Of a stretch of DNA of 64,000 nucleotides, positions 1-12,267 are shown in pieces. Source of the DNA: Dehalogenimonas formicexedens (GTDB lineage: Bacteria; Chloroflexota; Dehalococcoidia; Dehalococcoidales; Dehalococcoidaceae); NCBI RefSeq assembly GCF_001953175.1, contig NZ_CP018258.1:1888210-1952209 (forward strand), written 5' to 3'. Position 1 is the stretch's first letter. Each line of letters begins with the position of its first letter. A model generated the notes under the pieces. The model saw only the letters and a program-made list of their open reading frames with translations. It made no database searches and was not told where the DNA came from. The position numbers were made by a program, and so were the translations under genes.

Positions 1-486
1 AAGGACCACGTTTGGAGCTACGACTTTGTTAAACGTAGGACAGAGAACGGCAAGGCTTTCAGGATACTGACCATTATCGATGAGTTCACTAGGGAGTGCC
101 CGGCGCTGCTGGTGGCCCGCAGTATCCCTTCTCATGATGTCATAGACCAGCTTTTCCAACTCTTTGTGCTCCGGGGAATACCTGAGTACATCCGCTCCGA
201 CAATGGAACCGAATTCACCGCCAGGCAGATACGCAAATGGCTGGCCAGGATTGGAGTTAAAACGCTATTCATCGAGCCAGGGAGCCCATGGGAAAACGGC
301 TACATTGAGTCCTTCAATGGCAAGCTCAGTGATGAACTCCTGGACCGGGAAATATTCAGTACGTTAACTGAGGCGAAGGTATTGATTGAGCAGTGGAGGA
401 GGGACTACAATCAGATCCGGCCCCACAGCTCACTCGGCTACCGTCCACCGGCGCCAGAGGCCAAGATAGCTGCAATAACTACTTAA
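1..486 (+). CDS. IS3-family transposase OrfB (5'-truncated by window edge)
   Basis: This is the C-terminal part of a DDE integrase-core transposase. The frame is open from base 1. Visible elements in order are WSYDFV with the first catalytic Asp, TIIDEFTRE, RSDNGTEF with the second Asp, and GYIESFNGKL with the catalytic Glu, followed by the usual tail NQIRPHSSLGYRPPAPEA. All three catalytic acids are present, so this part looks intact. The protein would act with OrfA as the OrfAB fusion to move the element. It ends 29 bases before the putative IS terminus, as is normal for this family. Confidence 0.93.
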   Translation, partial: KDHVWSYDFVKRRTENGKAFRILTIIDEFTRECPALLVARSIPSHDVIDQLFQLFVLRGIPEYIRSDNGTEFTARQIRKWLARIGVKTLFIEPGSPWENGYIESFNGKLSDELLDREIFSTLTEAKVLIEQWRRDYNQIRPHSSLGYRPPAPEAKIAAITT

Positions 487-515
487 GAAGTGGTATCGCT
501 ATCGGGGGCAGGTCA
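1..515 (+). mobile_element. Right end of an IS3-family (IS407-like) element
   Basis: The window opens inside an IS3-type transposase gene whose stop lies at 486. About 29 bases later (504-515) a GGGGGCAGGTCA motif occurs. Its complement, TGACCTGCCCCC, is the kind of terminal end seen in IS407-type elements, so I place the element boundary at 515. The left end, OrfA and the start of OrfB lie outside the window. The neighbouring minus-strand gene (479-1090) reads into this end, which suggests that the insertion truncated it. The exact boundary is an inference because only one end is visible. Confidence 0.7.
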
Positions 516-1090
516 AATTTAGCTACCGCTTTGGTCAACATTATTTTAAGATGTGAATTACTTACCTCTTGTATCGAATACGGTATCCCAACCTTGTCGG
601 CAAATTCGCTTATTATTTGTTCTTCAAACTTGATTCCTTTAAACCTAAGCGCAACCATTTTTGTCACGTTGGAATCAAGGACAACTCTCCCATTTTTTGT
701 GTTTAACCCAAAACCATCAATAACTTCCTTCCTCCATTTAGTCAAAAAGGGTTTACTCAACATCCATTCATTATTCCTTAAGCATTTTCGTAACAACGAA
801 GGGGGAAGTGACATTTCCCAACAATTCTTCCCTCCCAGCATAGATATCGAGTAATCACGGTATTTGTTCATGAGTTTCTCAAGATCAGGATGGCAAGATC
901 CGTAAATAATAATAGTTGATTCATTTGCTATTACTGACTTGTCAATCTGTGTTCTTAACGTTTGACTACCAACTGGAAAAAGGCAACAGGGTAACACCGG
1001 ATATATAGAATAGGCGTTATCAGGTAACGTTTTTGTTACCAATCTTACTTGGTCAAGCATCGAAGCGCAGGTTAAAAGGCCGATTCTCAT
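479..1090 (-). CDS. DUF1638-like protein, C-terminus altered by IS insertion
   Basis: This 203-residue protein resembles the DUF1638 family: it has a Cys near the N-terminus (LLTCASML), an IIIYGSCHPD segment and a Cys in LGGKNCWEM, where the family usually has YGLCG and a Cys-rich binding region. DUF1638 proteins often accompany corrinoid and methyltransferase genes, but their biochemical role is unknown. Its start overlaps the stop of the upstream gene by four bases (ATGA), so the pair is translationally coupled. About the last eleven codons (after KF) lie within the IS end at 479-515, so the native C-terminus has been replaced. The family call is moderate and rests on motif layout only. Confidence 0.55.
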   Translation of the reverse strand: MRIGLLTCASMLDQVRLVTKTLPDNAYSIYPVLPCCLFPVGSQTLRTQIDKSVIANESTIIIYGSCHPDLEKLMNKYRDYSISMLGGKNCWEMSLPPSLLRKCLRNNEWMLSKPFLTKWRKEVIDGFGLNTKNGRVVLDSNVTKMVALRFKGIKFEEQIISEFADKVGIPYSIQEVSNSHLKIMLTKAVAKFDLPPIAIPLLK

Positions 1091-1671
1091 TCCATTTTCT
1101 CCAGCAACGAATCTTTAAGTATAGTAGGAAGGGCCAATATGCTGGGAGGGAAATTGCATGATGATAGGTAATTATCCATTAACTCCGGTTTTAGAATAAA
1201 TATATTCCCCCCCAAGAGAACACGTATATCCTTACCACGTAACAATTTAAGAAATCTGTCTAATAGAATAATGTGGTTATATTGTGGCAAGGTGACTACG
1301 ATGAACCTACCGTTTATGAATTCGGTTTTTTGTCTTTCAGGGTTTAGTATTGACGTGGGTCGAGCTCGAAACCCTGATAATGTCAACAGTAGATAAATTA
1401 GTTCAACGGATTTAGGTATGAACTCAGAAAAATAACAGATTGGGATAACTGTTTCAGATAAATGGTGAGACGCGATAAGCGATAATCCATGATTAACAAA
1501 TTTCAATGCGGCATTTAATTCCGCCGCATTCACATTTCCTGCTTCCCATTGAGTGGTTAAGTCGCAAACAGTGGCGAGCAGTTCCTCACTCGAATATATT
1601 CTTTCAGCATTGAAGTCTTTTTCAAGAAGGTCGTTATAGAACTGTATACGGTTAACGCTGGTCGCTGGCAT
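1087..1671 (-). CDS. Degenerate cobalamin-binding-like protein
   Basis: The 194 residues have the layout of a B12-binding module. A helical cap includes TTQWEAGNVNAAELNAAL (about residues 40-58). A Rossmann-like half follows with EFIPKSVELIYLLLTLSGF, then alternating strands and helices. In true B12-binding domains the second part carries DxHxxG with the cobalt-ligating His, and no such motif is seen here. The gene is coupled to the following DUF1638-like gene by an ATGA overlap and lies about 130 bases after the dehalogenase-like gene at 1801-3144. A corrinoid-related accessory role is plausible but unproven. An unrelated alpha/beta fold remains possible. Confidence 0.4.
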   Translation of the reverse strand: MPATSVNRIQFYNDLLEKDFNAERIYSSEELLATVCDLTTQWEAGNVNAAELNAALKFVNHGLSLIASHHLSETVIPICYFSEFIPKSVELIYLLLTLSGFRARPTSILNPERQKTEFINGRFIVVTLPQYNHIILLDRFLKLLRGKDIRVLLGGNIFILKPELMDNYLSSCNFPPSILALPTILKDSLLEKME

Positions 1672-1800
1672 GTAAGAATTCCTTTTATTAACCAGGAAGT
1701 ATTATAGCATGCCTCATGGTAACAAAATGGTAAAAATAGGTAACGGTATGGTTGGTTTGATCGGGAAAGTTTTATTCGTTTGAAACCAGTTTTCTCTGTC

Positions 1801-3144
1801 CTAAAATGATCGAGGAATATTGAGGAGGCTTGAGCAAAATGGGCATGTGGCCAAACATAAATTGCATTCACTCGATTGTTCGAGGCTGTGTTTCTTACAC
1901 AAATGCGTCTTATTAAAAAACAATTTTTTACCTGGCACTGTATATTCGTTTGACATCCCCTCGAACGTAGGCGGTTCCCAACTCGCTTCAGAATGGTTCG
2001 AAATCGCGCCGCTCGGACATACGGTTGCACATTTAAAGCATGTATGGCAATAGCGAAACACCCCGGAATCTATTGGACCGGTGGGAGCTAACGGGAGATC
2101 TGTGATCATACTGAAATAACTCGAATTGTTCTGAGGCTTTGGACAAAAACAATAATTGTTATTCCTTGTGACCTCGGCTAGTCCTGACAATATCGCGGCG
2201 GCAGCGGCAGGCAACAGCCCCTGTGTATCATCCATGTACCCCATGCCTTGGTATCCGATAGCTCTCAGGAAATCCTGAAGACACGTTTGTACAGCTGTAT
2301 GCGTCCTATAACTGTTATCGTAATAACGCGGTCCCCAGATCGAAGAATTTTCGTGAGTCGAACGAATCGGAGGCATCATGATACTGACAATCCAAAGTTT
2401 TTTCTTTGGTATGACATATCGGTTTGCCGACTCGTATGCCCGGGTAACATCCTCGAATACGATGGGTTTTATAATATCATTTGGTGGCGGCCAATCATGC
2501 GTGAAATCATTTGTTGTAGCTTTTGTCTTCCCATATTTTGCAGGAGGATTATTGTTTCCTCTCGGATAGGTAAAAAGCAATTTACGCTCGAGGCTGTTAA
2601 GCTCCATGGTCCCTATTGTGTATGCGCCAAAGTACCGAGCAGCAGCAGTTAGAATTCCAAGGTTTTCTTCCGGTGTACCTTGCCAAGTTATAGGTTCCCT
2701 GTAAGCGGAAGATGTTTCTGCATGTTCACGCCCCAAAAACGTCTTCGCAAAATACGGTTTGATCCTACTACCTTCGATTAAGGCTTGACGGAAAAGTGTT
2801 AGTCGAGAGTGGCGTATTTCGGATAGTAAAGCCCTGTGTCCCGAGTTGATTGAATCGTAAACTGCTTGGATTCCGCCAATATATTTAGCGAGACTATGGA
2901 TCGTGTGCAAAGACTCTCGTCCGTCAAAACGGTGAATATTTTCCCAATTAATTTCACAAGTGGGGTGGTTGATTTCGAGAGGTGAAACCCACCAAGGTCG
3001 TTGATTTTTGGCTAATTGGGATGCCAGCACCTCGTCAAGGTCATGGAAAGTGTCACTAGCAATTGACTGTTGAAAAACATGTGAAGGGAGATCAAAGTGG
3101 GTTGTGAAGGCTTTTTCTGTGTGGGTAACATGATATTTGGTCAT
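1801..3144 (-). CDS. Reductive dehalogenase homologue lacking Tat signal and C-terminal tail
   Basis: This is a 447-residue RdhA homologue. Two 4Fe-4S motifs are intact: C366, C369, C372, C376 followed by P, and C416, C427, C430, C434. It aligns from its first residue with the RdhA at 4176-5759 (MTKYH against MSKFH, then FHDLDE, WWV and the RFDG/RYDG segment). However, the twin-arginine stretch TRRDFMK is replaced by TEKAFTT and the hydrophobic Ala/Gly core is gone. It also ends about 60 residues earlier, just after the second Fe-S motif. The product should stay in the cytoplasm, unlike respiratory RdhAs. It follows the Crp/Fnr gene by 16 bases and is probably co-transcribed with it. Retention of all eight Cys suggests selection for cofactor binding. 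A catabolic or sensory role is possible, as is early decay. Confidence 0.85.
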   Translation of the reverse strand: MTKYHVTHTEKAFTTHFDLPSHVFQQSIASDTFHDLDEVLASQLAKNQRPWWVSPLEINHPTCEINWENIHRFDGRESLHTIHSLAKYIGGIQAVYDSINSGHRALLSEIRHSRLTLFRQALIEGSRIKPYFAKTFLGREHAETSSAYREPITWQGTPEENLGILTAAARYFGAYTIGTMELNSLERKLLFTYPRGNNNPPAKYGKTKATTNDFTHDWPPPNDIIKPIVFEDVTRAYESANRYVIPKKKLWIVSIMMPPIRSTHENSSIWGPRYYDNSYRTHTAVQTCLQDFLRAIGYQGMGYMDDTQGLLPAAAAAILSGLAEVTRNNNYCFCPKPQNNSSYFSMITDLPLAPTGPIDSGVFRYCHTCFKCATVCPSGAISNHSEASWEPPTFEGMSNEYTVPGKKLFFNKTHLCKKHSLEQSSECNLCLATCPFCSSLLNIPRSF

Positions 3145-3160
3145 AAAACCACTGCATAAG

Positions 3161-3898
3161 TTAAGACTGAGATAGGCATTGGCAATTTAGATTCGGGACT
3201 AGTTCTTCAACTTCATTTCTGGGGTGCAATTCCATCTCTTTTAGGAACCAATTGCTTATGATAAATTTATGTTCCAAATCGTCCTTAACTATGCCAGCCT
3301 TTTTAAGATTTTTCAGGACGTTAGTTACCATTACTCTGGATGTCCCAGTCAGCGCTCCCAATTCATCGTGAGTCATTCTAAAAGCCAATCTTCGGCCATC
3401 CTTTGTTACTTCACCGTGTTCTTGAGCCAGACGGCCAAGCATCCGAGCTAATCTCGTCTGAGTATCACAAATTGCCATGTCAGCCAGCCGCTCATTCATC
3501 GTTCCCAAACGTTCGCTTAAAATTCGGATTGTTTTGATCGCTATTGACGAATTCTGAGCGATAAGTGATTCGAAATCTGTCTTATAACAGGCGCAAAGGC
3601 GGGATCTTTCCATAGCCTGAGCTGAAAGGGCATGAACACTATCGTTGAATAGGACTTCCTCACCGAAAAGATCGTGTGATGTCAGATAGCCCAAGACAAT
3701 TTCTTTGCCCTCATCGGACGTCTTGAAAAGCTTAATTTTGCCCTCGAAAACCATGAACACCGCTGTCGAAGGCTCCCCCTGCATGAACAGGTATTCACCT
3801 TTACCATACATCGGTCGGCGAAACAAAGTCCGAACATATTCTTTCTCTGAAGCATTTAGCGATTCGAACAACCAAAAGTCAGACATACAACCTATCAT
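3161..3898 (-). CDS. Crp/Fnr-family transcriptional regulator
   Basis: The 245-residue protein has an N-terminal cyclic-nucleotide-binding-type beta-barrel (about 10-125, with GEYLFMQGEPSTAVFMVFEGKIKLF and LFGEEVLF). A long dimerisation helix and a C-terminal winged HTH follow (about 150-225, MTHDELGALTGTSRVMVTNVLKNLKKAGIV). There is no N-terminal Cys cluster of the FNR Fe-S type, but Cys residues occur at 4, about 100 and near the C-terminus. In Desulfitobacterium, CprK of this family senses halogenated phenols and activates dehalogenase genes. The position here, divergent from rdhA and leading an rdhA-like gene, suggests a comparable role by inference. The start is supported by a GAGGGTGGG purine-rich stretch upstream. 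Confidence 0.88.
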   Translation of the reverse strand: MIGCMSDFWLFESLNASEKEYVRTLFRRPMYGKGEYLFMQGEPSTAVFMVFEGKIKLFKTSDEGKEIVLGYLTSHDLFGEEVLFNDSVHALSAQAMERSRLCACYKTDFESLIAQNSSIAIKTIRILSERLGTMNERLADMAICDTQTRLARMLGRLAQEHGEVTKDGRRLAFRMTHDELGALTGTSRVMVTNVLKNLKKAGIVKDDLEHKFIISNWFLKEMELHPRNEVEELVPNLNCQCLSQS

Positions 3899-3990
3899 TT
3901 CAATCCCACCCTCTTAACACTAGTAACAAAAATGCCTCTGCGCAGAAAAATCCCTATATCAAAATTATATCACTAGCCTAAGAGACGTGG

Positions 3991-4142
3991 TGTAATCCGT
4001 AATACATAATTTTGGGACAAATTTGTTTGAGGGAGATGAGATAAGTGTAAAAAGGGTCGGGTCGTTCCTAGCCACCCAGGATGTCATCCAGAATACAACT
4101 TCATTGTATTTATATTTACTGCCAAAGAAACGTGTTTGTATT
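3991..4142 (+). promoter_or_regulatory. Candidate operators upstream of rdhA
   Basis: The 277-base gap between the Crp/Fnr gene and rdhA contains three related boxes. At 3991-4006 there is TGTAAT-N4-AATACA, a 16-base dyad with one mismatch and the size of a Crp/Fnr site. At 4092-4110 there is a perfect 7-base inverted repeat, AATACAA-N5-TTGTATT. At 4136-4142 TTGTATT occurs again, exactly 32 bases (about three helical turns) after the previous copy. The boxes share the AATACA/TGTATT half-site. The adjacent Crp/Fnr protein is the obvious candidate ligand. The rdhA start has an AGGAGA ribosome-binding site at 4165-4170. Confidence 0.5.
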
Positions 4143-4175
4143 AGCTTATGGTAAATAAGTTAAAAGGAGAATGAT

Positions 4176-5759
4176 GTGAGCAAGTTCCATAGCACCGTGA
4201 CCCGTCGTGATTTCATGAAGGCGATTGGCTTGGCTGGAGCCGGGGTTGGAGCCGCCGCACTGGCAAACCCAGTATTTCATGACTTGGATGAGCTGGGTGG
4301 AGCAACTGGAATTGGTAAAGCTAAACGCGCCTGGTGGGTAAAAGAGCGCGAGGCATTGGATTCAACTACTCCGGTGGATTGGGATATCTATAAAAGATAC
4401 GATGGTGCGCTCAATACTGTACCGTTCCTTGGGAACATGGCTCCGGACGAAGCCAAGAAACTTACTGATGAAACGGGGATGATCGGTTTACTCGAAACTC
4501 TTCAACACGATTTAGGGAACACTGCAGCGATGATCAAGTTTCCCAAGTGGCAACCAGGTTCACAACACATTGAAGCTATGTTAAATAAGAAACCTGGTTA
4601 CAGCGTCAGGGAATTTGCGTTTGGGCATGGTATGGTGACCTGGCCTTCAAAATTGTTGGAACCTCATGCAATGTTCATGGGGGATAGCCGGATTATGAGC
4701 CGTATTTGGAGCCCACAAGAATTAGGTGTTCCTCCTTGGAGTGGTACCCCTGAAGAAAACAGTGCTCTTCTCCGAACGGTTATCAGGACATTGGGAGGAT
4801 CTACCATCGGTTTTGTACCTCTAAATGAGAAAACAAGGAGGTTTATCAACACTAGACCAATTGGAGATCCCGGAATGCGAATTGAATTTGAAGATGTGGA
4901 TGCGCCGTACCTTAAGTATTCTGGTAAAGACAATTCAGAATCAAAATTTGTTATACCAAACAAATTCACGACTGCAGTGACTTTTAGTTGGCAAATGTCC
5001 AAAGCCATTATGAATGTTCCTGGTATGCATACAGCACAGCAATCTGGAGGTACTTGTATTCAAATAGATGTCCCTCGACATACTTTACTGCAATTTTTTA
5101 AGGCCTTGGGTTGGCACGCAGCTTCGACCGATGCAATAGGTAATCATCTGTTTCCTCCTTTTGGGGTTATGGGGGGGTTAGGCGAGATGGGGCGCATGAC
5201 CATGGTTATAACTCCGGAAAGAGGACCCCAAATACGAGCCACAAGTTGTGTGTTCACTGATCTCCCACTCGCTTATGATAATCCGATTGAATTTGGGGCT
5301 CGTCGCTTTTGCTTTACCTGTAAAAAATGCGCTGATGTCTGTCCAATGGGAGCAATAAGTACAGAAAAAGAGCCATCATGGGACATCACCAAGAAATATG
5401 ATAATTATGTTCAACCCGAGACATTCAACAATGCTGGATTAAATGCCTGGTATCTGGATCACAATAAATGCTATCAAGGCTGGAGAAAATCCCTTTCGGG
5501 GTATTGCGGACTTTGCCAGCCCAACTGCACTTTTTCGAAATTTGATCAAGCAGGAATTCACCAGGTCATCATGGGGACTGCATCAACTACTCCAGTTTTC
5601 AACGGGTTCTTTAGGAAAATGGACGATTTCTTCGGTTATGGGTCCAAAGCCAAAGGTTGGGGAGAAACAACGCAAGAAGAAATTGATGCGTTAATGTATT
5701 CTGGAGAAAACCTCAGTGAATGGGGATATGACGGAACCTACGGGCGCCATAGGTTATAA
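4176..5759 (+). CDS. rdhA: Reductive dehalogenase catalytic subunit RdhA
   Basis: This full-length 527-residue corrinoid and iron-sulfur enzyme removes halogens from organohalides at the outer face of the membrane as terminal respiratory reductase. A twin-arginine signal (TRRDFMK, then a Gly/Ala-rich core LAGAGVGAAALA) occupies residues 8-30. The central part matches the RdhA cobamide/substrate domain. Two 4Fe-4S motifs follow: C379, C382, C385, C389 then P, and C432, C444, C447, C451, the last followed by T instead of the usual P. The GTG start at 4176 is chosen over ATG at 4171/4174, because both upstream ATGs run straight into TGA. No rdhB membrane-anchor gene follows: a strong terminator begins 20 bases after the stop. 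The substrate cannot be told from sequence alone. Confidence 0.95.
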   Translation: MSKFHSTVTRRDFMKAIGLAGAGVGAAALANPVFHDLDELGGATGIGKAKRAWWVKEREALDSTTPVDWDIYKRYDGALNTVPFLGNMAPDEAKKLTDETGMIGLLETLQHDLGNTAAMIKFPKWQPGSQHIEAMLNKKPGYSVREFAFGHGMVTWPSKLLEPHAMFMGDSRIMSRIWSPQELGVPPWSGTPEENSALLRTVIRTLGGSTIGFVPLNEKTRRFINTRPIGDPGMRIEFEDVDAPYLKYSGKDNSESKFVIPNKFTTAVTFSWQMSKAIMNVPGMHTAQQSGGTCIQIDVPRHTLLQFFKALGWHAASTDAIGNHLFPPFGVMGGLGEMGRMTMVITPERGPQIRATSCVFTDLPLAYDNPIEFGARRFCFTCKKCADVCPMGAISTEKEPSWDITKKYDNYVQPETFNNAGLNAWYLDHNKCYQGWRKSLSGYCGLCQPNCTFSKFDQAGIHQVIMGTASTTPVFNGFFRKMDDFFGYGSKAKGWGETTQEEIDALMYSGENLSEWGYDGTYGRHRL

Positions 5760-5779
5760 GGAGATTAGATAAGATGGTG

Positions 5780-5817
5780 CGGGGACGATTTTCAGAAATC
5801 GTCCCCGTCTTTCTTTA
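5780..5817 (+). terminator. Rho-independent terminator after rdhA
   Basis: A perfect 12-base-pair stem (CGGGGACGATTT with its complement, loop TCAG) is followed by a T-rich tail TCTTTCTTTATAT. It closes a single-gene rdhA transcript. The remaining 220 bases up to 6040 show no convincing gene, and no small hydrophobic RdhB-like frame was found there on either strand. Confidence 0.88.
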
Positions 5818-6040
5818 TATAATAGGTCGGTCGCGGAGATAGAAGACGCGGCTCTTTTTCTGCCTAGGTAACAACTTCATCTATGCCTTGGGTATCGGAC
5901 GGAGTTAGGTCTGTCGTCGGTGATGAAGTAGGGAAGCACCACATGGGGATGTTGGGATCGGGCAGGGCAGCGTAATTAGTAACCCGCCGAGAAGGGATCA
6001 AATATAAGGGCCGGTATTCTCCAACCAGACTTTCATTACC

Positions 6041-7546
6041 TTACCTCACCTCTCCACCGCGTGTAATACCCTTGGCTTCATCGAGCTTTTTGTTTTCCTT
6101 ACCTACCCAACCCATCCTTTTAAACAGTTTGAACATCCATGAATCGGAACTGTTGGTTTGGTCCATCATAATGTCGATGTAATACTTTCCCAGGTCCCAG
6201 ACCGAACGGAAGAATTCACCTGGACGTTTGACCGCGGTCAGGAAGAACGCCGGGTTATGTCGCATCATGAAGCGCACTCGCCTCGTGGCATAGCTGCGGC
6301 GAAAGCTGGCCATGGCATCATCCATAGCTTTTTGAGGTACAGAAGACAGGTTCATCTCGTTAGCACACCGGAGAGGGAAATCGGCCCATTCTATTAAGGT
6401 CTTGGGTTGAGCCAGGAGTCCGTGCTCGACACAATAATCGAAAAGCTTAGTACCGGGGTAGGGTACGAATTTCATGTAGAGATAGGGCGGATCGTCAAGT
6501 CGCTTCAACAGGTCCAGGCTTTCCCTGAAATCGGCGAGAGTCTCGTTGGGGTACCCGTAGTACATGAAGATGGTCGGGATGATGCGGTGTTTGACTAAAA
6601 ACCAGAATGTGGATTCCATTTCGGCCACAGTGCCCTTGTCCAGAAAGGTCAGCATTCGTTGGCTGCCGGTTTCAACCTCGAGCAGCACCGAGGTACAACC
6701 GCTCTTAGCCATGAGCTTAACCGTCTCTTCGTCAATGCCACCTGAGACTGGAGCGTTCCAGGTCAATTTCCATTTCTTGGCGATGACAAGATTACAGAAC
6801 TCCTTGAGCCGCTCGCGGTTGATGACGAACCGCTCCCCAGAAAAATAGATGTGCTGGGTTCCAAACTCCTCATGCAGCTTCTCCATCTGCGACACGATGC
6901 GCCTGGCGGAAAGATCACACATCTGGCCGCCCCAGAAATTTGCATCGGAGCAAAAAGTGCATTTATAAGGGCAGCCCCGGGAGGTATTCAGAGTGACGTC
7001 AGAATATTTGTTGACATCTATCAGATGCCAGGCCGGATCCGGCAGGCTGTCGAGATCGGGCATGAAAGATCTGACTTCATTGATTACCGCTTTGCCTTGA
7101 GGGTCCTTGTAGGCCAACCCTTTAATCGATGAAATCTCAATATCACCATTCTGTAAGTAGTCGGTGAGTTCGGCGATAGTGAATTCACCCGCCCCTATCA
7201 CGGCATAATCGACGCAGGGCTCGGCAAGAACATCAGCCGGATAGGCACTGGCGTGCCTGAATCCCCAGGTGATCTTAACTCCAGGCAGCAGTTTTTTATA
7301 TTCCGCTGACTGAGACAGGGCGCTGGCGATATTCGGGCCCGTAGCCACGCCAAACCCGATAAGCGCGGGGGCAAATTCGATAAAGTCTGCCGGCTGACTT
7401 TTCTTATCCAGGTTGCAATCGATTATTTTGACTTCATGTCCGCAGCTTTCCAGCATGCCGCCGATAGACAGCATCTCATCCGGAAATTTGGTGTAACCCG
7501 GCATATTGCCGTACGCCCTGGATGGGATAACGAGTAATATTCTCAT
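6041..7546 (-). CDS. B12-binding-domain radical SAM protein
   Basis: The 501-residue protein has a cobalamin-binding-type N-terminal domain (about 1-135, with FGVATG and WGFRHASAYPADVL in the position of the family's GGxHxTxxP). A radical SAM core follows, with C192xxxC196xxC199 (GCPYKCTFCSD). The C-terminal part includes GYPNETLADF and the YMKFVPYPGT segment seen in class B and related enzymes. Such enzymes use SAM, and often methylcobalamin, for difficult methylations or rearrangements. The target here is unknown. The gene precedes ribBA's end by about 40 bases in the opposite reading order, so the two may share a transcript. The proximity to rdhA may be coincidental. Confidence 0.88.
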   Translation of the reverse strand: MRILLVIPSRAYGNMPGYTKFPDEMLSIGGMLESCGHEVKIIDCNLDKKSQPADFIEFAPALIGFGVATGPNIASALSQSAEYKKLLPGVKITWGFRHASAYPADVLAEPCVDYAVIGAGEFTIAELTDYLQNGDIEISSIKGLAYKDPQGKAVINEVRSFMPDLDSLPDPAWHLIDVNKYSDVTLNTSRGCPYKCTFCSDANFWGGQMCDLSARRIVSQMEKLHEEFGTQHIYFSGERFVINRERLKEFCNLVIAKKWKLTWNAPVSGGIDEETVKLMAKSGCTSVLLEVETGSQRMLTFLDKGTVAEMESTFWFLVKHRIIPTIFMYYGYPNETLADFRESLDLLKRLDDPPYLYMKFVPYPGTKLFDYCVEHGLLAQPKTLIEWADFPLRCANEMNLSSVPQKAMDDAMASFRRSYATRRVRFMMRHNPAFFLTAVKRPGEFFRSVWDLGKYYIDIMMDQTNSSDSWMFKLFKRMGWVGKENKKLDEAKGITRGGEVR

Positions 7547-7589
7547 GAATCCCTTGTTGCTTTACGAAGGACCGATCAAGCTTATCGAC

Positions 7590-8804
7590 CTAGGGATCCG
7601 CCACCAATTCAAGGTGGTGCCCAAGTTTGTTTTTCTTGGCGTTAAGGTACTTTTTGTCGTAAGAATTTGGAGGCGCCTGGATATTCAAAACTTCTGTTAT
7701 TGTTAATCCGTATCCTTCAAGTCCAACCACTTTTCGCGGATTATTGGTCATCAATTTGATACGAGTCAATCCTAAATCGGATAGGATTTGAGCGCCAATT
7801 CCATAATCCCGAAGGTCATCTTCAAACCCCAGCTCATGATTTGCTTCTACCGTATCCAACCCTTGGTCTTGCAAGGCATAAGCTCGTAATTTGTTGTGGA
7901 AACCTATGCCTCTGCCTTCCTGCCGCATATATAGTAGCACCCCAGAACCCTCGTTAATAATGGCTTTCATCGCCATGTCCAATTGTTCACCGCAATCGCA
8001 CCTCAGGCTGCCAAATACTTCCCCGGTAAGACATTCGCTATGCACCCGGACCAAAACAGGTTCATCTCCGTTGATCTTTCCCTTCACCAAAGCAACGTGT
8101 TCACCGCTTTCAACTTCACTACGATAAGCGATCGCTTGAAATTCCCCATAACGGGTCGGCATTTTGGTTTCTGCGACTCGTTGAACCAGATGCTCGGTTC
8201 TTCGGCGATATGCAATTAATTCGGCAACACTGATCATGGTGAAGCCCCATTCTTTGGACATTATTTTGAGTTGGGGAAGACGCGCCATAGTCCCATCAGG
8301 GTTCATAATCTCGCAGATCACTGCGGCCGGATACAATCCTGATAACCTTGCCAAATCTACTGAAGCCTCAGTGTGGCCAGCTCTCTTCAATACGCCACCC
8401 TTGAGGGCTTTCAACGGGAAAATATGCCCGGGTTTCACTAAATCATTTGGTTGAGTTGAGGGATCGATCAAAGCCTTCACCGTTGCCGCCCTATCGGCAG
8501 CCGAAATTCCTGTAGAGACTCCAAAACGAGCCTCTACTGACACTGTGAAAGCGGTGGAATGTTTTGAAGTGTTGTCATGAACCATTAGCGGAAGATTGAG
8601 CATCTCCAAACGATCCGGATCCATGGGGACACAAATTAGACCGCGAGCGTTTTTAGCCATAAAGTTGATTGTTTCAGGTGTAATTGCCTCAGCAGCTATT
8701 GCCAGATCACCTTCGTTTTCGCGGCTGTCATCATCGACAATAATGACAAATTTCCCTTGCCTAAAATCAACTATCGCCTTGTTAAGATTATCCGTATTTA
8801 ACAT
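7590..8804 (-). CDS. ribBA: Bifunctional DHBP synthase / GTP cyclohydrolase II
   Basis: The 404-residue fusion supplies both precursors of riboflavin. Residues 1-200 form the RibB domain (VIVDDDSRENEGDL binding the metal and ribulose 5-phosphate, RAGHTEASVDLARL). Residues 205-404 form RibA (VRVHSECLTGEVFGSLRCDCGEQLD with the zinc cysteines, RQEGRGIGF, NPRKVVGLEGYG). All expected motifs are present and the length is normal. The upstream gap (8805-8970) does not show the conserved boxes of an FMN riboswitch. Flavin supply is consistent with the flavin-fold protein encoded just upstream. Confidence 0.96.
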   Translation of the reverse strand: MLNTDNLNKAIVDFRQGKFVIIVDDDSRENEGDLAIAAEAITPETINFMAKNARGLICVPMDPDRLEMLNLPLMVHDNTSKHSTAFTVSVEARFGVSTGISAADRAATVKALIDPSTQPNDLVKPGHIFPLKALKGGVLKRAGHTEASVDLARLSGLYPAAVICEIMNPDGTMARLPQLKIMSKEWGFTMISVAELIAYRRRTEHLVQRVAETKMPTRYGEFQAIAYRSEVESGEHVALVKGKINGDEPVLVRVHSECLTGEVFGSLRCDCGEQLDMAMKAIINEGSGVLLYMRQEGRGIGFHNKLRAYALQDQGLDTVEANHELGFEDDLRDYGIGAQILSDLGLTRIKLMTNNPRKVVGLEGYGLTITEVLNIQAPPNSYDKKYLNAKKNKLGHHLELVADP

Positions 8805-8918
8805 TCAAATTCCTTCAACCGATTGGTAGATGTGGTACAGGTAAATACCGGAGTTAATGTTTTGCCAGATTTGTTTTCATACTTCTATTGATACGAAGTC
8901 TTATTGTGAAGGACACGA

Positions 8919-8949
8919 GAGCGAGTGAGCCGGTTGGGCTCACTCGCTC
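8919..8949. terminator. Hairpin between flavin-fold gene and ribBA
   Basis: There is a perfect 13-base-pair stem (GAGCGAGTGAGCC and complement) with a 5-base loop. It lies directly downstream of the minus-strand gene 8971-9390. The T-run after it is short on either strand, so termination may be inefficient and could leave some read-through into ribBA. Confidence 0.6.
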
Positions 8950-8970
8950 TTTGTAAGCAGTCAATCCGAA

Positions 8971-9390
8971 TTACGCTAGTTTCTTGCCCTTATCCTGTGG
9001 AGCTTGAGAGAAAATCGAATCCACGTGGACAACTCCCACTCCAGTGATATCTACACCCATCGCTTTCTTCAGACCTTCGGCAAACTTATCAAAAAGTGGA
9101 CCTGAAGTCTCATACTTCTGGAAAGTCCCTTTAACTTGTATTGTGGTGAAAGGAGGGGCGATAGGAATCTTTACAGCGACGATCGCCACTTTTTTGGTTT
9201 CTTCAAGGTTCTTGAATGTCCTGGTAGTTTTGCCATATAGGTCGGCAAAAGCCAGGGTCTCTGCGTCCACCGCGGTCATGCTTGTTTTTGGAGTGACGTT
9301 GAGCTCTCCCTTTTTGTCGACTGTAGCCACCATCTTAGGTACCGAGGCATCTTGGAACAGATCGATAACTTCCTTGGGCATTTTCGCCAT
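8971..9390 (-). CDS. Pyridoxamine 5'-phosphate oxidase-fold (FMN-binding) protein
   Basis: The 139-residue protein has a split-barrel flavin fold: MPKEVIDLFQDASVPKMVATVDKKG, then NVTPKTSMTAVDAETLAFAD, TFKNLEETKKVAIVAV and VKGTFQKYET. These match the small PNPOx-like family that binds FMN or F420. The substrate is unknown. I choose ATG at 9390 over ATG at 9408 because GGAGGG lies between them at normal spacing. A strong promoter lies at 9455-9483. A shortened paralogue lies in inverted orientation at 11089-11247. Confidence 0.85.
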   Translation of the reverse strand: MAKMPKEVIDLFQDASVPKMVATVDKKGELNVTPKTSMTAVDAETLAFADLYGKTTRTFKNLEETKKVAIVAVKIPIAPPFTTIQVKGTFQKYETSGPLFDKFAEGLKKAMGVDITGVGVVHVDSIFSQAPQDKGKKLA

Positions 9391-9454
9391 GTGTTTTCCC
9401 TCCAACAATTTTTCTCAATGAAAACGTATTCTAGTTTTCATTGGAATGGCTGAA

Positions 9455-9495
9455 AGTTTATCATCACCTTACGTCACTGTCAATACCATACGTCA
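9455..9495 (-). promoter_or_regulatory. Promoter and tandem 19-base repeats for the flavin-fold gene
   Basis: Read on the minus strand there is TTGACA (9478-9483), a 17-base spacer and TAAACT (9455-9460). The plus strand carries ACCTTACGTCA at 9466-9476 and ACCATACGTCA at 9485-9495, a near-identical direct repeat with a 19-base period. One copy sits inside the spacer and the other just upstream of the -35. The spacer resembles that of the promoter at 11009-11037. This placement suits a regulator acting on the spacer, such as the nearby MerR protein, but binding is an inference. Confidence 0.65.
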
Positions 9496-9691
9496 GTGTT
9501 TAATTCAAAACGAGATTGCTCTGAAATTTGGGAAATGCCAAATGTAAATCGGGTTCATCGCGATAGTCAACTACGAAAGTCTGCATCATAAGTTAGAACC
9601 GCCTTGTCGTTATCTAGCCGAATTTGTTTGAAGGCTTAGAGAATGGTCTGTATAATCCAGGCCATCTATTTTTGGATCGGAGATAAACTCT

Positions 9692-10429
9692 GTGGCGATT
9701 CAAAACGGCAATACGCCGTCCAAACAGAAACCATTCAATGCTGCAGTGCATTTTAATACCGATCTTGCTGAGAAATATGATGAAAATATCCGCTTATTCT
9801 GCACCTCTTACGATGTTTTACACGAGATGGTTTTGAATTGGCTCCGAAACCAACCTGAGAGGTCTAAATTCCTTTCATCTGGTGCTGGGACCGGAACTGA
9901 AATACTCTGTCTCGGAAAACATTTCCCTTTATGGCAGTTCACCGCTGTTGACGTTTCTGCGAGTATGATTACAACCTGTCAAAAGCGGGTCACTCAGGCA
10001 GGAATGGACAACCGAGTAAAGTTCTCAATTGGCAGGGTGGAAGATTTTCATTCAACCTTCCAGTTCGATTCAGCATCTTCGATTTTTGTATCCCACTTTA
10101 TCAAAGAGCGCGAAGATAAATTAAAGTATTTTGGCTCTATCGCCGCTAATCTAAAATCTGGTGCCCCGTTCATTCTCGCTGATCTGTTCGGTGCTAAAGA
10201 TTCAGATGAATTCCAGTGTTTGTCAGCGGCTTGGTTAGTTTCATGCGAATCACAAGGGTGGTCCGCAGAGGTCCTAATAAAAAACGAAAATCATATTGAA
10301 CGAGATATTTCTTTCATTCCAGAGACCGAGTTGTTCGCAATATTAATAGAGGCGGGATTTGAGGTCCCTGTTCGTTTTTATCAAACATACTTATTTGGTG
10401 CGTGGATTACATGGAAACGTAGTCAATGA
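9692..10429 (+). CDS. Class I SAM-dependent methyltransferase
   Basis: The 245-residue protein has a Rossmann-type methyltransferase core. Motif I is FLSSGAGTGTE (60-70), the acidic ribose-binding end of strand 2 is FTAVDVSASM, and later motifs are FDSASSIFVSHF and LKSGAPFILADLF. The N-terminal FNTDLAEKYDENIR segment resembles small-molecule methyltransferases of the UbiE/Tam type. The start is GTG. It is divergent from the flavin-fold gene, with 301 bases between starts. The substrate is not recognisable. No terminator is obvious before the convergent MerR gene. Confidence 0.82.
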   Translation: MAIQNGNTPSKQKPFNAAVHFNTDLAEKYDENIRLFCTSYDVLHEMVLNWLRNQPERSKFLSSGAGTGTEILCLGKHFPLWQFTAVDVSASMITTCQKRVTQAGMDNRVKFSIGRVEDFHSTFQFDSASSIFVSHFIKEREDKLKYFGSIAANLKSGAPFILADLFGAKDSDEFQCLSAAWLVSCESQGWSAEVLIKNENHIERDISFIPETELFAILIEAGFEVPVRFYQTYLFGAWITWKRSQ

Positions 10430-10495
10430 AGCGGAGCTCGACTTATTCCATCGACATTATGTTAGAGATCAGTGACTAGCAGGTTAGTTGGGGAT

Positions 10496-10960
10496 CTACG
10501 AAAAAATATAAACACTTTGGGGACAGTCCTTGCAACTAGAAGCATCACACTTTAGACAATTTTGAACCGATTCCAAAGCGATTGAGTTATTTTTTCGGAG
10601 TTCGTTTAAAATTTCCTGGTAATCGTCGATTTTTTGTTGGGCAAGGGTAAAAGCACTCAAGGATCGATTCAACACTTCTGCCTTTGTCCCAGCAGAGGAG
10701 CTGTTAACCCCTAGGATTGTCTTGATGTCATCAAGAGAAATATCGAGACGCCTCAGTGTGTTAATGAACCGCAATCTGATAACGTCTTTATTATTGTAAA
10801 GCCTGAGCCCCGATTGAGTGGTTGCGTACGGCTTTAGAAGCCCCGACTCTTCGTAAAATCGAACCATCCTGAGACTGACGCCAACCGCCTTGGCGATGTC
10901 ACTAATTTGGAGAATAGATTCGTGTACTGTCTCTGATTTCATACCGTGATTGTAACGCAA
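10496..10960 (-). CDS. MerR-family regulator with Cys-rich tail
   Basis: The 154-residue protein has an N-terminal MerR winged HTH (ISDIAKAVGVSLRMVRFYEESGLLKP, then RLYNNKDVIRLRFINTLRRLDISLDDIKTIL). A coiled-coil helix follows and a C-terminal tail ends CLKC-x4-SC-x2-C, with four Cys in about twelve residues. Such a cluster could bind a metal or an Fe-S centre, or act as a redox switch. The usual SoxR spacing is not exact. ATG at the internal MKSET could be the real start. It is divergent from the promoter at 11009-11037 and is the likely regulator of this small locus. Confidence 0.88.
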   Translation of the reverse strand: MRYNHGMKSETVHESILQISDIAKAVGVSLRMVRFYEESGLLKPYATTQSGLRLYNNKDVIRLRFINTLRRLDISLDDIKTILGVNSSSAGTKAEVLNRSLSAFTLAQQKIDDYQEILNELRKNNSIALESVQNCLKCDASSCKDCPQSVYIFS

Positions 10961-11008
10961 TGTTATATCTTTTTCAATGAAGGTACGGGATAAACATTAC
11001 TATAGGGA

Positions 11009-11037
11009 TTGACATTGACGCTACGTGATATTATACT
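11009..11037 (+). promoter_or_regulatory. Strong sigma-70-type promoter
   Basis: There is TTGACA (11009-11014), a 17-base spacer and TATACT (11032-11037). The spacer carries TTGACGCTACGTGAT, close to GTGACGTAAGGTGAT in the spacer of the flavin-fold gene promoter (9455-9483). The two promoters therefore look like copies of one ancestral regulatory region. It faces the deleted paralogue and receiver-protein genes. Confidence 0.75.
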
Positions 11038-11088
11038 CCGCCTAAACTTGGGAACCGTTCGAGATAATTGATTCTGAGGAGAGGCACT

Positions 11089-11247
11089 TTGGCTTCAATG
11101 CCCCAGGATGTGGTTGATCGAGTCCAGAATCCCTCACTCCCCAAAATGGTGGCCTTCCAAGCCTTGAAGGAAGCCATGATCGTCAATATTGCTGGTGTGG
11201 GCACGGTTCGAGTCGATACCGTCCTTTCGCAGGCTGTCTGTTTATGA
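11089..11247 (+). pseudogene. Internally deleted copy of the flavin-fold protein
   Basis: The 52-codon frame starts TTG at 11089 (or ATG at 11098). It reads MPQDVVDRVQNPSLPKMVA, matching MPKEVIDLFQDASVPKMVA at the N-terminus of the protein encoded at 8971-9390. It then jumps to ALKEAMIVNIAGVGTVRVDT, matching GLKKAMGVDITGVGVVHVDS near that protein's C-terminus. About 80 central codons, including most of the flavin fold, are missing without loss of frame. A good promoter and a GGAGAGG site remain, so a peptide may still be made. Its TGA overlaps the ATG of the next gene, which may be its only remaining purpose (translational coupling). Confidence 0.75.
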
Positions 11248-11726
11248 AGTTAGTCATAATTGAGAACTCCCCCGAGGTATCGGATCTTGTGTCCTTGGCT
11301 TTTAGTGTCGGCCGGCCTGATACCCAGATAATTGCCGTTACGCCTGAGGTTGATATGATAAGTCTAATACGGGGGACTAATCCGGATGTTGTATTCGTTG
11401 ACCTTGGGTTAAAAAAAATGGCAGGGTTCGAGGCTATAATAAATATAAGATCTTTTTCTGAAGTCGCAATAATAGCCGTGGCGGACCTGAAAACAGTAAA
11501 CGATATTCCTAAGGCAATCAATCTGGGAGCGAATGAGTCCATCGAAAAACCATTAGATTTGATGGATATTCTAGTAAAAATTTGTAGGTTGACTGAAAAA
11601 CGGGAGACTAAAAAACAACAACCGACAAGTCAAAACGATGGGCCCCCAGGCCAGACGGAACTCATTTCAAGCACTAAACCCATTTGCATTCGGACCCCCT
11701 CTTTGCCTAGAACCCTAGCTTCGTAG
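11244..11726 (+). CDS. Stand-alone response-regulator receiver domain
   Basis: The 160-residue protein has a CheY-like receiver in residues 1-112. The phosphoacceptor is D53 (VVFVDLG) and the conserved Lys lies in ESIEKP. The acidic pocket is E7-N8 rather than the usual DD/DE, and the Thr/Ser position in IIAVAD is Ala, so phosphorylation may be weak or absent. The last 45 residues are polar and low in structure, and no output domain follows. No histidine kinase is nearby. The start overlaps the preceding remnant by ATGA. Confidence 0.78.
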   Translation: MKLVIIENSPEVSDLVSLAFSVGRPDTQIIAVTPEVDMISLIRGTNPDVVFVDLGLKKMAGFEAIINIRSFSEVAIIAVADLKTVNDIPKAINLGANESIEKPLDLMDILVKICRLTEKRETKKQQPTSQNDGPPGQTELISSTKPICIRTPSLPRTLAS

Positions 11727-11753
11727 GGTCGTTGTGAGTTTCTGCACATATTT

Positions 11754-12128
11754 GTGTACCCTCGATTGAGGCGACCTATGGATTTTCAACCTGTAATTAT
11801 TGTACAGGTCAGATTTAGACAAGGCCGAGGTGATGGTAATGGTTGGTACCGTGCTGTATGCAAGACATGGATTAACAGGACCGAATCGTATGCCGTTGCA
11901 ATCGCGCCTATCAGTTCAGGCGAGCATGGAGATCTGGACAATTGCGCGATCGTGTGTCCACGTTGCCACGAATGGATCAGGCTAGATCTAGAAAATGATC
12001 CTCACAAGATTTTAAAAGCTGGCGACGTTCCTTACAAGATAATAAAAACCACGCCAAGAATGAAAAACCAGCTTTCTAGAATGTTTATACGTCGAGAGCA
12101 CTCTCCCATCCCACTACATCCATCTTAG
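11754..12128 (+). CDS. Possible degraded HNH-type zinc protein
   Basis: This 124-residue frame is not firmly recognised. Its centre, AIAPISSGEHGDLDNCAIVCPRCHEWI, has the layout of an HNH nuclease core (a P-x-GG-like loop, DN, then CxxCH). The first Cys pair expected upstream appears in a different frame (CNYC around 11783-11794), which suggests an old frameshift. The start could be GTG at 11754 or ATG at 11778. No ribosome-binding site is clear. Treat it as a hypothetical or decaying gene. Confidence 0.4.
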   Translation: MYPRLRRPMDFQPVIIVQVRFRQGRGDGNGWYRAVCKTWINRTESYAVAIAPISSGEHGDLDNCAIVCPRCHEWIRLDLENDPHKILKAGDVPYKIIKTTPRMKNQLSRMFIRREHSPIPLHPS

Positions 12129-12267
12129 CCCGGGTTGTGATTTTAGTTAAATTCAGATATATTCCATTAGAGCTCAACAAAATGACGATTAGTTCAATTC
12201 CACCCGGCCCCCCGATCCGACTTAAATTCAGATGCTTGTAAAGCACCCGAATAATGTAATGATGGTC

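Follow-up and report, generated by a model that had tools for sequence, protein, structure and literature searches.

Gene content of the locus

The window, meaning the whole 64,000-nt stretch of Dehalogenimonas formicexedens DNA analysed (host genome G000; 2,092,789 bases, one contig), encodes a Tat-less, C-terminally shortened homologue of the reductive dehalogenase RdhA (1801..3144, minus strand). The coordinates and frame given for this gene in the original prediction are right: translation from an ATG start yields 447 aa with zero internal stops. The protein scores 203.5 bits against TIGR02486 (cut-off 160.35; positions 2-279 of 314 covered) and matches Pfam Dehalogenase, and Pfam and NCBIfam scans of its 447 aa gave no reductase family. 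The gene has no adjacent rdhB; beyond an IS element in the same island there is an orphan rdhB, and an rdhA remnant has been described there (PMC4918011).

A CRP/FNR-type regulator of 245 aa (3161..3898, minus strand; cNMP_binding and HTH_Crp_2 over cut-off) is encoded 16 nt upstream of the rdhA-like gene; the 2026 genus paper records a CRP/FNR gene adjoining an rdhA as Dform_02002 / DEALK_00320. Divergent from this pair is the gene for a complete, Tat-bearing RdhA (4176..5759, plus strand), beside which no rdhB was found. A candidate operator before the exported RdhA gene (4092..4110, no strand assigned), an inverted repeat with 7-nt arms and a 5-nt spacer, is not beyond chance: with up to 3 mismatches it occurs 3 times against 2.8 expected, only the 4092-4110 occurrence being exact. 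No repeat common to the stretches before CRP relatives was seen.

Downstream lies the gene for a 194-aa protein (1087..1671, minus strand) that in related genomes is the partner of DUF1638 histidine kinases, followed by a 203-aa DUF1638 fragment of a ~600-aa histidine kinase (479..1090, minus strand), which ends at the IS element; the end of the IS transposase gene occupies 1..486 (plus strand), its start lying left of the window. In several related loci the 194-aa protein is paired with a complete DUF1638 histidine kinase of ~600 aa, and a response regulator comes after the two, near an rdhA. Because the kinase gene ends at the IS element, the two-component system of the present locus looks broken, with the CRP-type protein as the regulator left. 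The family of the 1087-1671 product (194-207 aa) adjoins DUF1638 histidine kinase genes in the eight loci aligned. Cobamide binding by the 194-aa protein was considered and rejected, the resemblance of its GG motif region to a cobamide-binding one being an impression by eye and no Pfam family scoring over cut-off; its profile found no credible match among solved structures.

Loss of the Tat leader and the C-terminal module

Comparisons are drawn from a survey of 267 near-full-length RdhA ORFs from 10 of 11 Dehalogenimonas and Dehalococcoides genomes, reduced by six duplicate rows to 261 distinct RdhAs; the eleventh genome (G007, 23 matches) and four stretches (five places in all) in G002, G020, and G056 lie outside it. 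RdhA matches number 20 to 53 per genome. Genomes G103, G005, and G004 are presumably D. mccartyi 195, strain WBC-2, and D. lykanthroporepellens BL-DC-9, respectively; G003 matches strain W, and G001 is taken as D. alkenigignens IP3-3.

The former leader region of the 1801-3144 protein (residues 1-32; 3049..3144, minus strand) has neither twin arginine nor hydrophobic core, as originally predicted: TEKAFTT stands where the neighbouring RdhA has TRRDFMK, and hydropathy over 19 residues, for stretches that start before residue 30, peaks at 0.24, vs. 1.54 in the neighbour. The distance to the end of the FHDLDE motif is 38 residues, vs. 39 in the neighbour, so that the length of a Tat leader is kept and the region was altered by substitution, not deletion. 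The frame can be extended upstream by 14 codons at most (461 vs. 447), which leaves no room for a hidden in-frame Tat signal. The N-terminal transmembrane helices of hybrid RdhAs are likewise absent, given the best N-terminal 19-residue hydropathy of 0.24, and no 19-residue stretch anywhere in the protein exceeds 1.25. Neither twin arginine nor hydrophobic core is found in 5 of the 267 ORFs: the two identical copies of the 1801-3144 gene and three copies of a gene situated before dcpA (the dcpA companion; see below). Twin arginine is absent from eight ORFs in all, the others being one copy truncated at the edge of its locus and a pair of short G004 ORFs in which hydrophobic core and C-terminal module persist; RK leaders occur in three further ORFs. 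One ORF of 740 aa likewise had a low hydropathy score, because the stretch scored lay outside its leader.

All eight Fe-S cysteines named in the original prediction are kept, in motif 1 (CX2CX2CX3C, residues 366-376; 2017..2049, minus strand) and motif 2 (CX10CX2CX3C, residues 416-434; 1843..1899, minus strand), that is, in two cluster motifs. Tyr279 (2308..2310, minus strand) aligns with the catalytic Tyr of PceA and is Tyr in 204 of 261 RdhAs; Arg327 (2164..2166, minus strand) aligns with the active-site Arg of PceA and is invariant (261/261). The retention of both residues suggests that the core could still handle substrate and cobamide. A structure prediction built from 17 sequences was too poor for use (mean pLDDT 44.8).

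The chain ends 13 residues past the last Fe-S Cys (1804..1842, minus strand), with Asn442 at a near-invariant His column and the C-terminal module absent. From the start of Fe-S motif 1 to the C-terminus there are 82 residues, vs. a median of 136 across the 267 ORFs (next shortest, 106), so that ~54 residues are gone, close to the tail of about 60 that had been reported missing. A frameshift as the cause was rejected: five queries detected no tail remnant downstream of the gene, and in the positive control, a single intact gene, the same queries do detect a tail. The C-terminal His is present in 256 of the 261 distinct RdhAs, and is missing only from the 1801-3144 protein, three dcpA companions, and one WBC-2 protein. 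In the same way, among the 267 ORFs only the two 1801-3144 copies, the three companions, and the WBC-2 protein have an RdhA-profile match that stops by position 417 of 476, the next one reaching 431.

The C-terminal His of a DET0876-type RdhA aligns with a His of the PceA chain 8q4h. In PceA2B2, the domain S486-Q551 contributes two helices that lie in the membrane and, with PceB, enclose menaquinone, H495 being nearest (PMC10624902), and on our reading of the alignment the near-invariant RdhA His probably corresponds to H495. Quinones are not required in Dehalogenimonas (PMC10624902), so that the C-terminal module is better read there as a contact with RdhB or the membrane.

Relatives and phylogenetic position

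The core and Fe-S region of the 1801-3144 protein align with the exported PceA of Sulfurospirillum (4uqu; E 2.7e-20) and with that of Desulfitobacterium (8q4h; E 3.8e-12); the latter docks with PceB via its C-terminal domain, the part missing here. NpRdhA (4ras), which is cytoplasmic and catabolic, also lacks Tat (PMC4959651) and matches in the region of Fe-S motif 1, but it is an NADPH-dependent chain of 704 aa, and the 1801-3144 protein has no such extra domain. RdhAs without Tat have been described from marine sediments and in BL-DC-9 (PMC3939436; PMC4959651). Like the marine Smkt1 and DEH-C11 proteins, eight RdhAs in our data (L161-L168) have no twin arginine; they come mostly from uncultured Dehalococcoidales plus one deltaproteobacterial bin, and their Tat leaders are eroded, two being nearly deleted. 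Since L161-L168 retain the C-terminal module, Tat loss alone is not the mark of the trimmed class.

A copy of the protein in a second species (G001) is 100% identical. It corresponds to DEALK_00310 of IP3-3, which Table 5 of PMC4918011 lists at 447 aa, with both Fe-S motifs and without Tat or rdhB; that 2016 listing assigns no function, and the same paper reports Tat motifs in 27 of the 29 RdhAs of IP3-3. In the literature searched with five locus tags, PMC4918011 was the only paper found to name any of them. The Tat-less state is therefore already published for an identical protein; what is new is the repeated trimming and the pairing with regulators, and the value of the present analysis lies there.

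Apart from the identical copy, the nearest relatives are Tat-bearing DET0876-type RdhAs (G103 803653, and in L070), which have the same core at 40% identity but in which the Tat leader is complete and the C-terminal module present. A scan of the genome contigs with the protein found no further close relatives, and a contig scan with the alignment gave 15 loci at 23-31% identity. The neighbouring exported RdhA, with which the original prediction had aligned the N-terminus residue by residue, is rejected as the parent of the gene (26-29% identity vs. 40% to the DET0876-type genes).

A tree of 134 RdhA rows was built by a quick method with SH-aLRT support only. For polarity and INDEPENDENCE, the 1801-3144 protein groups with the Tat-bearing DET0876-type RdhAs (eight rows, support 91, inner order unresolved); it thus nests among Tat-bearing RdhAs. 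A phylogeny of RdhAs with and without Tat had been called for in the original prediction. Its branch is long (1.23, vs. 0.54 for DET0876). In the same tree the dcpA companion is sister to the DcpA of G004 (support 99) and the WBC-2 protein is sister to a complete RdhA of G006 (support 93). From these separate positions, the C-terminal module was lost at least three times among RdhAs.

Other trimmed RdhAs

The dcpA companion (L110 12040-13416; G000 1402039-1403415) lies directly before dcpA and rdhB, the RdhA pair with rdhB spanning 1,402,039-1,405,337 in G000; the dcpA island has been placed at 1,384,297-1,407,259 in D. formicexedens NSZ-14 and at 1,612,218-1,635,409 in IP3-3 (2026 genus paper), and the G001 companion is at 1,629,697. 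Like the 1801-3144 protein, the companion (DEALK_17180 / Dehly_1523) is Tat-less, lacks the C-terminal His and the FNGFF segment, has the F365Y change, and is preceded directly by a regulator gene. It differs in arising from the DcpA branch, in having an XRE-type regulator, and at the catalytic column, where Tyr is absent, as it is from DcpA. At residue 365 (2050-2052), just before the first Fe-S Cys, Tyr replaces Phe in 4 of 261 RdhAs, namely the 1801-3144 protein and three companions, the same change in two separate lineages.

The companion was found in 5 of the 11 genomes and is Tat-less in all five; it is intact in G000, G003, and G006, carries one TGA in G001, and is interrupted by an IS in G004. 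The four copies without the IS give pairwise dN/dS values of 0.03-0.14 (core, 0.02-0.10); for the first 120 codons the values are 0.11-0.34 in five of six pairs, the sixth having no differences there, and partial pairs with G004 reach 0.27. For dcpA itself the value is 0.148, from the sole pair measured (G000/G001). The low dN/dS of the dcpA companion (0.03-0.14) shows that purifying selection on it is strong. The G000 and G001 companions match exactly at either end and have diverged in between, which indicates that recombination is present.

The WBC-2 protein (L230 8605-10056; G005 1515621-1517072) is encoded before a transporter-like gene, near a divergent RdhA gene. Its leader keeps RR and has a weak core (hydropathy 0.81 vs. 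a median of 1.61).

Regulator genes before the trimmed RdhAs

All five RdhAs without the C-terminal His have a regulator gene (CRP, XRE, or MerR) upstream on the same strand at 16-84 nt: the dcpA companion is 22-23 nt behind an 82-aa XRE-type regulator, and the likely start of the WBC-2 protein is 84 nt from a MerR-type regulator gene. Of the remaining 256 distinct RdhAs, 74 are preceded within 150 nt by an ORF of at least 60 aa on the same strand, and by eye nine of these ORFs encode regulators, of which six are response regulators and three are small HTH proteins; among the matches listed, which cover 25 of 31 families, Pfam supports at least seven (six Trans_reg_C, one small HTH). The contrast of 5/5 with 9/256 gives a Fisher p of 2e-7, or 8e-5 when counted by lineage (3/3), values that are descriptive only, hypothesis and test coming from the same data.

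Relatives of the 3161-3898 CRP occur in 10 of the 11 genomes. None of the 13 other loci read has an RdhA of the trimmed kind behind the CRP relative, and the idea of a conserved CRP-RdhA pair was rejected, the pairing being confined to the two identical copies. In 7 of these 13 loci the CRP relative lies beside a small pyridoxamine-oxidase-like gene.

Selection on the 1801-3144 gene

The protein has six changes at near-invariant sites, the joint highest count among 261 RdhAs: three in the leader, one at the C-terminal His, and two in the core (G338Q and F365Y). Two such core changes place it at the 95th percentile of the 261. Neutral drift was simulated with point changes only, in 300 runs per identity level; the frame stayed free of stops in 5% of runs at 90% identity, in 1.3% at 80%, and in 0 of 300 at 70% or below, which indicates that the gene was maintained over most of its branch. 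We conclude that it has been kept by selection for most of its history, a recent loss of function being compatible with these data. Simple decay over the whole history, which the original prediction had set against its own reading, is disfavored by the same simulation.

Proposed function

The missing leader and module suggest that the 1801-3144 protein is soluble and cytoplasmic, probably an offshoot of a respiratory RdhA, and the regulator genes before all five trimmed RdhAs suggest a read-out by transcription. We therefore lean, tentatively, toward a cytoplasmic, cofactor-loaded sensor or co-regulator as the best account of the gene. A respiratory RdhA has shed its Tat leader and the C-terminal module that in PceA docks with PceB and the quinone, and has kept the cobamide/Fe-S core, the Tyr, and the Arg; a cytoplasmic organohalide (or the cobamide or redox state) would alter the state of the protein, the altered state would be passed on by contact to the CRP-type regulator, and the regulator would then tune the neighboring exported RdhA gene. 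In this scheme we infer the cytoplasmic location, cofactor loading, co-transcription with the CRP gene, contact with the regulator, and sensing itself.

Several observations favor a sensor: the loss of the C-terminal His is confined to five RdhAs, all behind regulator genes; the dcpA companion is Tat-less in every genome that has it, at low dN/dS (0.03-0.14); and Tyr279, Arg327, and the eight Cys are retained, with F365Y common to both Tat-less lineages. Against it, the CRP-RdhA pairing is limited to two identical copies, and one and the same data set both suggested the regulator association and served to test it; a stop disrupts the companion in one genome and an IS does so in another; the candidate operator does not stand out from chance; the retained catalytic pair fits an enzyme equally well; and the long branch (1.23) comes with six near-invariant changes, one of them in the core at Gly338.

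Less probable, though still to be taken seriously, is a cytoplasmic dehalogenase for detoxification or catabolism whose expression the CRP merely controls; a soluble donor such as ferredoxin would feed the Fe-S end opened by the loss of the module. Retention of the catalytic Tyr, the Arg, and all Fe-S Cys fits such an enzyme, and NpRdhA and the marine Dehalococcoidia RdhAs provide Tat-less precedents (PMC4959651; PMC6797604). However, no fused reductase, or adjacent one among the flanking ORFs, accompanies the gene; the dcpA companion lacks Tyr at the catalytic column, although DcpA lacks it too; and a regulator before all five trimmed RdhAs is compatible with an enzyme yet not predicted by it. 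As to the catabolic dehalogenase or sensor originally envisaged, the regulator genes lean toward the sensor.

It is unlikely that the gene is instead decaying on a damaged mobile island, having lost its export and membrane parts first with the rest to follow. The adjacent kinase gene cut at the IS, with the orphan rdhB beyond (PMC4918011), would fit such a history, as would the long branch with its joint-highest count of near-invariant changes and the disruption of two of the five companion copies; the identical copies of the gene come from recent transfer and are silent on selection. Yet there is no stop or frameshift after long divergence, in contrast to the drift simulation (0/300 stop-free at 70% identity or below), four of the six near-invariant changes are concentrated in the leader and C-terminal module, and the same trimmed form is strongly selected in the dcpA companion. 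Escape from the cytoplasm as a passenger of another Tat-bearing protein, or of the orphan RdhB encoded on the same island, is most improbable: a missing Tat motif is no proof of absent Tat targeting (Kawai et al., 2014; PMC3939436), but the leader region is hydrophilic, with no 19-residue stretch above 1.25, and the protein lacks the module through which PceA contacts RdhB.

Returning to the sensor or co-regulator that we prefer, the respiratory-to-cytoplasmic conversion originally proposed holds as far as the sequence goes, since the protein nests among Tat-bearing RdhAs and has lost leader and module with the core mostly kept. It is conceivable, if doubtful, that Dehalococcoidia have undergone at least three conversions of an exported RdhA into a cytoplasmic, cofactor-bearing organohalide receptor by trimming of Tat leader and membrane/quinone module, each with its own type of regulator (CRP, XRE, or MerR) and each beside the gene for an exported dehalogenase. 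If true, this would be a direct sensing mechanism for organohalide respiration, made from the respiratory enzyme itself. Cytoplasmic sensing by kinases without membrane helices was proposed, and called unvalidated, in a 2026 genus survey (PMC13390414). For the choice among the many dehalogenases of Dehalogenimonas and Dehalococcoides, the trimmed RdhAs behind regulator genes are concrete candidates, the best being the dcpA companion, conserved as it is next to the gene that serves 1,2-dichloropropane dehalogenation. Should the trimmed RdhAs turn out to be enzymes, they would dehalogenate in the cytoplasm of organisms known for dehalogenation at the membrane.

Genomic island carrying the gene

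The gene lies on a tRNA-Ala island of ~52 kb (G000 about 1847790-1900408), the right part of which forms the first 12.2 kb of the window (1-12199). Compared with G001, 32.3 kb of the island are identical and 15.5 kb are 99.9% identical, the 4.9 kb between them, at a G001 contig end, being outside the comparison; to the right of the island the two genomes are collinear at roughly 80-90% identity. On the left the island ends within the 3' half of a tRNA-Ala gene in G000 and G001 alike, the anticodons differing (different Ala isoacceptor genes); no right-hand attachment repeat of the island was found. The island carries two phage-type integrases, and both strains come from one contaminated site (2026 genus paper). 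Recent sharing of the island explains the identical 1801-3144 copies in two species and says nothing on selection.

Cobamide-salvage genes also lie on the island: left of the window, L056 343-10695 encodes two CbiZ, CbiB, CobA/BtuR, and a tetrapyrrole methylase, and in addition radical SAM and Diphthami_syn_2 proteins. The gene order near the rdh genes of the island resembles that beside an rdhA of G103.
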